Origin: Pseudomonadota bacterium
GTDB taxonomy: Bacteria > Pseudomonadota > Gammaproteobacteria > JAADHS01
Direction: 5' to 3'
Length of the DNA stretch: 44,429 nt
Assembly (NCBI GenBank): GCA_021821045.1
Contig: JAKACW010000033.1
Span: 1 to 44,429 of the forward strand
Made by a program: the position numbers and the translations under genes. How positions within the stretch are numbered: the stretch's first letter is position 1; the number at the start of each line of letters is the position of its first letter. Shown here piece by piece: positions 13,535 to 13,979 of the stretch. The notes beneath the pieces were generated by a model that did no database searches, was not told where the DNA came from, and saw nothing but the letters and a program-made list of their open reading frames with translations.

Positions 13535-13611
13535 CGGGGCGTAGCGCAGCCTGGTAGCGCACCTGCATGGGGTGCAGGTGGTCGGAGGTTCAAATCCTCT
13601 CGCCCCGACCA
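13535..13611 (+). tRNA. tRNA-Pro (anticodon GGG)
   Basis: A 77-nt cloverleaf: acceptor CGGGGCG/CGCCCCG, D-arm TAGCGCAGCCTGGTAGCG, anticodon stem CCTGC/GCAGG around loop ATGGGGT (anticodon GGG, proline codons CCC/CCU), T-arm GGAGG-TTCAAAT-CCTCT, encoded ACCA. Its last 16 nt form the beginning of the tandem repeat that follows. Confidence 0.95.
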
Positions 13612-13979
13612 ATCTATTGCCGCTTCGCGGCTTTGATGCCGGGGCGTTCGGATTCCCGGCCCTGCGGGCGTTCGAAACCCTGCGTTTGCTTCGCAAACGG
13701 TGATTTCTCACCCTCTCGCCCCGACCAATCTATTGCCGCTTCGCGGCTTTAATGCCGGGGCGTTCGGATTCCCGGCCCTGCGGGCGTTCGAAACCCTGCG
13801 TTTGCTTCGCAAACGGTGATTTCTCACCCTCTCGCCCCGACCAATCTATTGCCGCTTCGCGGCTTTAATGCCGGGGCGTTCGGATTCCCGGCCCTGCGGG
13901 CGTTCGAAACCCTGCGTTTGCTTCGCAAACGGTGGTTTCTCACCCTCTCGCCCCGACCAATCTATTGCCGCTTCGCGGC
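13596..13979 (+). repeat. tRNA-linked tandem repeat, 3 x 116 bp plus a partial fourth
   Basis: Units start at 13596, 13712, 13828 and 13944 (the last stops matching at about 13979). Each unit begins with the tRNA-Pro 3' end CCTCTCGCCCCGACCA. The period is exactly 116 bp. By eye the units differ at only two sites: GATG/AATG in the linker and GGTGA/GGTGG in the last hairpin. Each full unit has hairpins GCCGC-TTC-GCGGC, CGTTTGC-TTC-GCAAACG and GGTGA-TTTC-TCACC; the A-to-G change in unit 3 turns an A-T pair into G-T and keeps the stem. The layout resembles the rtT repeats behind E. coli tyrT. No conserved reading frame runs through, since 116 is not a multiple of three. The gap from 13980 to cheR (about 100 bp) shows nothing else. 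Confidence 0.95.

Follow-up and report, generated by a model that had tools for sequence, protein, structure and literature searches.

RtT repeats (also written rtT; RF00391) occur in the tyrT operon of E. coli and in Enterobacterales and Pasteurellaceae, and the tRNA operons also hold 3' external transcribed spacer (3'ETS) RNAs, for example 3'ETS-leuZ. RtT was described as an RNA liberated from the tRNA operon transcript (PMC4986893), and such repeats have hitherto been viewed as RNAs produced by tRNA operons. At the DNA level, partial tRNA genes are common at attR sites (PMC9897764), and palindromic repeats tagged by GTAG or CGTC have been reported in Gammaproteobacteria (PMC3733652). Here, the array that follows tRNA-Pro(GGG) in the window, i.e., the whole stretch of 44,429 nucleotides that was analysed, is compared with these systems. 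The window element is part of a previously uncatalogued, structure-conserved, gene-less DNA element family, and units with copied tRNA ends are common in bacteria other than Enterobacterales. They occur at either end of many tRNA genes and share a fixed junction as well as a conserved fold.

Organization of the array behind tRNA-Pro(GGG)

The window corresponds to a complete contig of a draft genome (4.5 Mb, 140 contigs) that, judging from its relatives, is Gammaproteobacteria-like. An earlier note, made from the letters alone, had described tRNA-Pro(GGG) followed by an exact 116-bp array of three units and a partial fourth with two differences, which was confirmed by ARAGORN and Tandem Repeats Finder. 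A single array was found at 13596-13979, with a period of 116, 3.3 copies, a 99% match and a score of 754, far above chance expectation. The copies open at 13596, 13712, 13828 and 13944, as previously stated, with CCTCTCGCCCCGACCA, which is the final 16 nt of tRNA-Pro and covers the 3' strand of the T-stem, the 3' strand of the acceptor stem, the discriminator and CCA. Because the repeat begins exactly at C61 of the tRNA, each unit holds these final 16 nt, hereafter called the pseudo-3' end. The unit is composed of a 36-bp block (the 16 nt and a further 20 bp) followed by an element of 80 bp. Two substitutions only distinguish the three full units, G vs A at 13635 and G vs A at 13935, and the fourth copy is exact over 36 nt before diverging, identity stopping at 13979. 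The features are as follows.

13535..13611, + strand: tRNA-Pro(GGG) with encoded CCA, host gene of the array (ARAGORN; Rfam tRNA, 61.9 bits)
13596..13631, + strand: repeat block copy 1, 36 bp, tRNA nt 61-76 plus a 20-bp spacer with a GCCGC-TTC-GCGGC hairpin (repeat comparison)
13632..13711, + strand: element copy 1, 80 bp, with the P1 5' strand, GGATTCCC, H1, GTTCG, H2 and CTCA (fold, alignment, profile)
13640..13646, + strand: P1 5' strand CGGGGCG, pairing with CGCCCCG of the pseudo-3' end at 13717-13723 (P1 coevolution p=0.0003)
13659..13669, + strand: helix H1, GCC...GGC (stem length differs among relatives)
13674-13679 with 13702-13707, + strand: outer stem of helix H2, GAAACC/GATTTC (two-sided changes in 6/6 outer pairs across relatives)
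13683-13699, + strand: inner hairpin of helix H2, CGTTTGC-TTC-GCAAACG (the whole of H2 being 13674..13707)
13712..13747, + strand: repeat block copy 2, pseudo-3' end 13712-13727 (repeat comparison)
13748..13827, + strand: element copy 2 (repeat comparison, profile)
13828..13863, + strand: repeat block copy 3, pseudo-3' end 13828-13843 (repeat comparison)
13864..13943, + strand: element copy 3, bearing the A-to-G change at 13935 (repeat comparison, profile)
13944..13979, + strand: repeat block copy 4, pseudo-3' end 13944-13959 (repeat comparison)

The fold energy of one unit was -50.1 kcal/mol (z -3.7), and none of 200 shuffled sequences was as good. The P1 5' strand CGGGGCG is identical in sequence to the 5' acceptor strand of tRNA-Pro(GGG). 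The A-to-G change at 13935 had been thought to keep its stem as a G-T pair; this stands only for a competing minimum-energy hairpin (GGUGA/UCACC), whereas in the covariation-supported fold a C-A mismatch in H2 becomes a C-G pair. No canonical terminator was found directly 3' of this tRNA gene in the window.

The genes near the array are ordinary, with cheR, a glgC-like gene and cheX downstream; DUF2238 and a chromate transporter are encoded on the opposite strand upstream. Among the 42 tRNA genes of the genome, such trailers were found on the three tRNA-Pro genes only. That of tRNA-Pro(CGG) consists of one homologous unit in a decayed state (77% over 86 nt). tRNA-Pro(TGG) (G000 C135, locus L154, 981-1057, minus strand) is followed by a distinct 176-nt unit, made of a long antisense copy of its own T-arm/acceptor (GGGTAGA-AAG-AGGGATTCGAACCCCCGAC) and an exact sense pseudo-3' end, then by tRNA-Arg(TCT); the layout of this unit is RtT-like, yet it had no match to Rfam RtT. 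Two other repeats were observed in the window: an 81-bp unit present 1.9 times at 27896-28047 (GTGGGAGCGG...GCGCCCAC), which is a REP-like palindromic repeat, and an imperfect 24-bp tandem repeat rich in GAAGAGAAAAAG at 28460-28545, probably a Lys/Glu-rich coding repeat.

Units with copied tRNA ends in other genomes

Doubled tRNA-Pro 3' ends numbered 8 among 369 genomes of the class in a pattern search, and the search across species genomes gave at least 118 stretches. After removal of true tandem tRNAs, 76 loci with a tRNA and a pseudo-end were retained among the matches listed. The pattern fixed the flanking letters only and left the variable acceptor letters (NNNN) free; these letters matched the own tRNA in 72 of the 76 loci listed (permutation mean 16.6, maximum 30). 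Inside the units of 30 of these 76 listed loci, the tRNA 3' end recurs in antisense at p<0.05, vs 0 of 34 tandem-tRNA spacers. The units fall into several unrelated families (Gammaproteobacteria, Serratia/RtT, Ferrimonas, Nitrospira, Alphaproteobacteria), each having a characteristic copy start in or beside the T-loop; counted back from the end of CCA, this start lies at 16 nt in the window family, at 19 nt in Serratia and at about 20-21 nt in Ferrimonas and Nitrospira.

Some of these other families have features of their own. In Ferrimonas and one record labelled Marinobacter (L049, L063, L073, L075, L082, L111), a terminator hairpin precedes each pseudo-3' end behind tRNA-Pro; these units form a family distinct from that of the window, and the copy mostly starts 20-21 nt before the end of CCA. 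At L111 (3261-3416, Ferrimonas balearica), an apparent tRNA-Pro(CGG) gene with extra T-arm bases (GGCGGAGGGCCGCCCCA) lies amid the pseudo-end array. In Nitrospira (L034, L061, L087, L097, L108, L113), a conserved unit of ~137 nt comes after tRNA-Pro(TGG) and includes an antisense CGAGAGGATTTGAAG and a sense CAAATCCTCTCG; it is another candidate structured family.

A structured family absent from Rfam

Twenty units of the window family could be aligned around the invariant or near-invariant blocks GGATT..C..GCC / GGC / CCCTCTC (GAATT in L024), and their fold is a three-way junction of P1, H1 and H2, in which the left end of the element and the copied terminus together form P1. In this alignment, 85% of the cells are paired and 81 show two-sided changes, vs a shuffled mean of 26 (0 of 500 shuffles as high); sliding the partner columns lowers this number to 12-19. 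An enlarged, model-fitted alignment gave 475 two-sided cells vs 145 after shuffling, and each of the ten base pairs in the main P1 helix varies on both sides. The earlier proposal of a structured and conserved unit is hence upheld. Besides, a profile trained without the window recovered the window units at E about 1e-14.

The full model, R1, matched in 57 of the 369 class genomes. The model R2, built on the core alone and holding no tRNA letters, matched in 73 of these 369 Gammaproteobacteria genomes, roughly one in five, from many families; its matches include both units of Thiohalobacter thiocyanaticus, which in strain Hrh1 lie behind tRNA-Pro (L071) and one of which belongs to the training alignment. 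The window units matched no Rfam family, RtT included, and no description of their family was found in the open-access literature, though RtT papers were. The window family is therefore a new structured family absent from Rfam.

In genome G068, a dispersed non-coding repeat of ~590 bp, rich in inverted repeats, holds two copies of the core (L211-L214). Hairpins with TCCNT loops (ATCCCT, ATCCAT, GTCCGT) recur in units and ahead of the core (L029, L039, L045, L235-L237 and others); the opposite strand of these loops reads ANGGA, the motif of the CsrA/RsmA type.

Placement at both ends of tRNA genes

Other tRNA-linked copies, for which the earlier note had proposed a search, were found behind tRNA-Pro, Arg, Met and Gly, and antisense upstream of many tRNAs. 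On the 3' side, R1 units lie behind tRNA-Pro, Arg(CCG), Met and Gly(CCC); they finish with CTCAC, or close to it, followed by the final 16 nt of their own tRNA, and the left strand of P1 changes to match. For these four tRNAs the junction is nt 61, the first base past the T-loop, and in nearly all loci the copy does not extend leftward past it. On the 5' side, other copies are placed antisense ahead of tRNA-Phe, His, Thr, Arg, Gly, Met and Ser and finish in the reverse complement of the tRNA 5' end; for the family overall, such copies also occur upstream of tRNA-Lys, Val and Ile. The copied terminus starts there mostly at tRNA nt 19, in the D-loop, and the distance from the core to the tRNA 5' end is a steady ~50-56 nt. 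In most tRNA-linked copies, the right end of the element (...CTCA) is joined to a copy of the terminus of the adjacent tRNA gene. A function specific to Pro is ruled out, as in other genomes this core accompanies Arg, Met and Gly and, at the 5' end, a wide range of further tRNAs.

The least biased test of placement relied on the 44 R2 core matches outside the training set, a tRNA being counted within 450 nt. A tRNA was located on the 5' side of the element in 19 of them and on the 3' side in 2, while by our own estimate a tRNA would be this near on a given side at about 0.5-1% of random sites. The neighbouring tRNA was antisense to the element in 18 of the 19 cases, and a scripted test detected the copied terminus in 14 of the 19, one of which (L389) is a second tandem unit. 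About half of the 44 matches had no tRNA nearby. Copies remote from tRNA genes also exist, as illustrated by at least 10 in G068 inside the ~590-bp repeat.

Duplication of the target and maintenance of the copied terminus

At four loci (L185, L191, L194, L200), an intrinsic terminator lies between the tRNA and the element and is duplicated again behind the element. The duplicated segment often includes the spacer and the terminator as well, as in a target duplication. The direct repeat of the target flanks the element in L188, L185, L195, L200, L182 and the window, while many older loci retain the tRNA part only. Direct repeats end at or near the start of P1 (22/22 nt in L188, 40 vs 37 in L195, 54 vs 50 in L185, 50 vs 52 in L200), and that of the window ends after 36 bp. 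Such a layout is that of an inserted element whose target has been duplicated.

The copied tRNA part shows identities of 96% on the 3' side and 92% on the 5' side, whereas the next outside bases average 59% and 52%, often the random level (paired tests, p 6e-5 and 5e-4). Because the copied terminus is intact while its flanks are randomised, something maintains the copy. A passive duplication should decay evenly, so the observed pattern is unlike it, even granting that the genuine tRNA evolves slowly. A maintained terminus would be explained by selection acting on the copy, by repeated insertion, or by site-specific recombination via the terminus that both share. P1 is slightly weaker where a terminator separates the tRNA from the element (p=0.04, n=5 vs 21), which hints weakly at an RNA-level constraint when tRNA and element are co-transcribed.

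The number of units varies within one genus. In G267, a congener of G157, the syntenic tRNA has no unit and the downstream sequence is different; G171 has lost one end. No clean empty site was found in the congeners of G024 and G157, where presence, absence and copy number vary and the flanks are too diverged.

Origin and possible roles of the element

The explanation that we favour, at about an even chance of being correct, is that the array consists of three copies of a gene-less, structure-conserved DNA element (about 80 bp here) that targets tRNA gene ends and is non-autonomous and mobile or integrative. The family has fixed inner junctions, an outward orientation, a conserved fold, a variable duplication, a location at both gene ends and tandem growth. 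Such a micro-element would depend on an enzyme supplied in trans; its conserved fold would mark the element ends, and the copied tRNA terminus would be the attachment or target site, recognised through the formation of P1 between this terminus and the left end of the element. In the window, one insertion may have been followed by unequal crossing-over between the 36-bp blocks, and any RNA effect would be secondary, if the array is read through. More specifically, the left end (P1) of a minimal element could act as a guide to the tRNA loop by pairing with the target, the guides varying among copies to match the local tRNA (Pro, Arg, Met) and the copied terminus being kept functional as a landing site. 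We consider this version a long shot; if true, it would represent a guide-directed, gene-less transposition using a host or trans-acting enzyme.

A rival proposal, which extends that of the earlier note, is an RtT-like trailer RNA, in which the array would be transcribed with tRNA-Pro and processing of tRNA-like units, with their acceptor-type stem and CCA, would free RNAs of ~88-116 nt that act as regulators or sponges. It is consistent with a P1 that equals the 7-bp acceptor stem of the tRNA itself, together with CCA, with the strong covariation of the fold, with the improvement of H2 by the change at 13935, with the agreement of NNNN between pseudo-3' end and host tRNA at nearly all loci listed, with the lack of a canonical terminator right behind the window tRNA, and with the report of RtT as RNA from a tRNA operon transcript (PMC4986893). 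However, homologous elements sit behind intrinsic terminators, or antisense upstream of tRNA genes with a copy of the 5' end, where a pre-tRNA trailer is absent, so that cutting at pseudo-3' ends is not supported as the purpose of the unit. Besides, P1 pairs into the ACCA end in several relatives, unlike in a tRNA, and pairs other sequence in non-tRNA copies, which discards tRNA mimicry as the main theme although P1 is the acceptor stem in the window. Because of the terminators between gene and element, the duplicated target and the symmetry at the DNA level, a function as pre-tRNA trailer cannot explain the whole family, and we regard the trailer RNA as unlikely for the array. More generally, a structured tRNA trailer need not be a processed RNA.

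It is quite unlikely that the array is a stack of scars, i.e., attR-type fragments left by phages or ICEs integrating at tRNA T-loops. Partial tRNA genes are indeed common at attR sites (PMC9897764), and the fixed start at the T-loop and the identity to the tRNA end suit the sites of tyrosine recombinases. Nevertheless, a conserved core of 76-80 bp lies between the copies in 73 of the 369 genomes and in many families, the spacing is 80-150 bp rather than kilobases, one core occurs with many tRNAs at both gene ends, and the window core had no blastn match in phage or plasmid records.

A DNA site beneficial to the host, such as a decoy attachment site that soaks up integrating elements, or an insulator or fork barrier next to tRNA genes, would account for the maintained identity of the copied terminus at both gene ends and for the steady distance between core and tRNA 5' end. 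We consider it improbable in view of the patchy distribution of the family, its absence from the two available same-family relatives and its copies away from tRNA genes.

Finally, a functionless local duplication, by slippage or unequal crossing-over of a tRNA trailer stretch, is highly improbable as the explanation: the exact 116-bp period and the near-identical units point to a recent amplification in this genome, and tRNA loci are recombination-prone, but the copied terminus is maintained while the flanks decay, and homologues in dozens of families, which share the junction and have a covarying fold, imply that local slippage cannot be the origin. These homologues and the covariation rule out chance or local duplication at the origin of the unit, in contrast to the random duplication devoid of conserved structure that would have refuted the earlier note; local duplication is likely as the step from one to three copies in the window.

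In the favoured reading, the family is closer in behaviour to site-specific mobile elements than to the processed tail of a tRNA. Since the family is wide, lies at both gene ends and has a fixed junction, the question can be directly tested at the DNA level: how a tiny gene-less element finds and copies a tRNA terminus, and why the copy stays intact.

Comparison with known systems

As RNAs derived from tRNA trailers, the 3'ETS RNAs of tRNA operons would resemble the window array, provided that the latter is transcribed, but they are not known to have a copy of the tRNA terminus or an array. REP/BIME and other palindromic repeats are likewise short, gene-less, hairpin-forming, intergenic, dispersed and sometimes tandem in Gammaproteobacteria. 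The window family differs from them by its longer three-way fold, its fixed junction inside tRNA genes and its copied terminus, and it has no linked RAYT gene: at 30 loci with PF01797 genes (Y1 transposase, RAYT-type) in 14 of 16 genomes, R1 had no match. Mobilisation of the RAYT/REP kind is hence rejected, as no element lies near the Y1 transposase genes of these loci.

With tRNA-targeted integrative elements, the family shares an identity block that stretches between a tRNA loop and the end of the gene, together with a partial tRNA copy on the far side, whereas it is gene-less, about 100 bp long rather than kilobases, and combines one core with many tRNAs at both gene ends.

The closest likeness is to RtT (RF00391), with structured tandem units behind a tRNA gene, each closing with a copy of the 3' end of that tRNA. 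The parallel drawn in the earlier note, with an unrelated unit, holds: tandem copies of the tRNA end are shared, while membership in RtT is ruled out, the Rfam covariance model having no match in the window at the gathering score or at E<=10. The same model scores the Serratia tRNA-Pro units at 72-75 bits; conversely, the core model of the window family does not match these Serratia units, whose copy begins 19 nt from the end of CCA instead of 16. Upstream antisense copies were looked for in the window family, where they were seen. The window repeat is therefore a structured, tRNA-terminus-copying repeat, similar to a target-duplicating micro-element, that resembles RtT and lies outside it.
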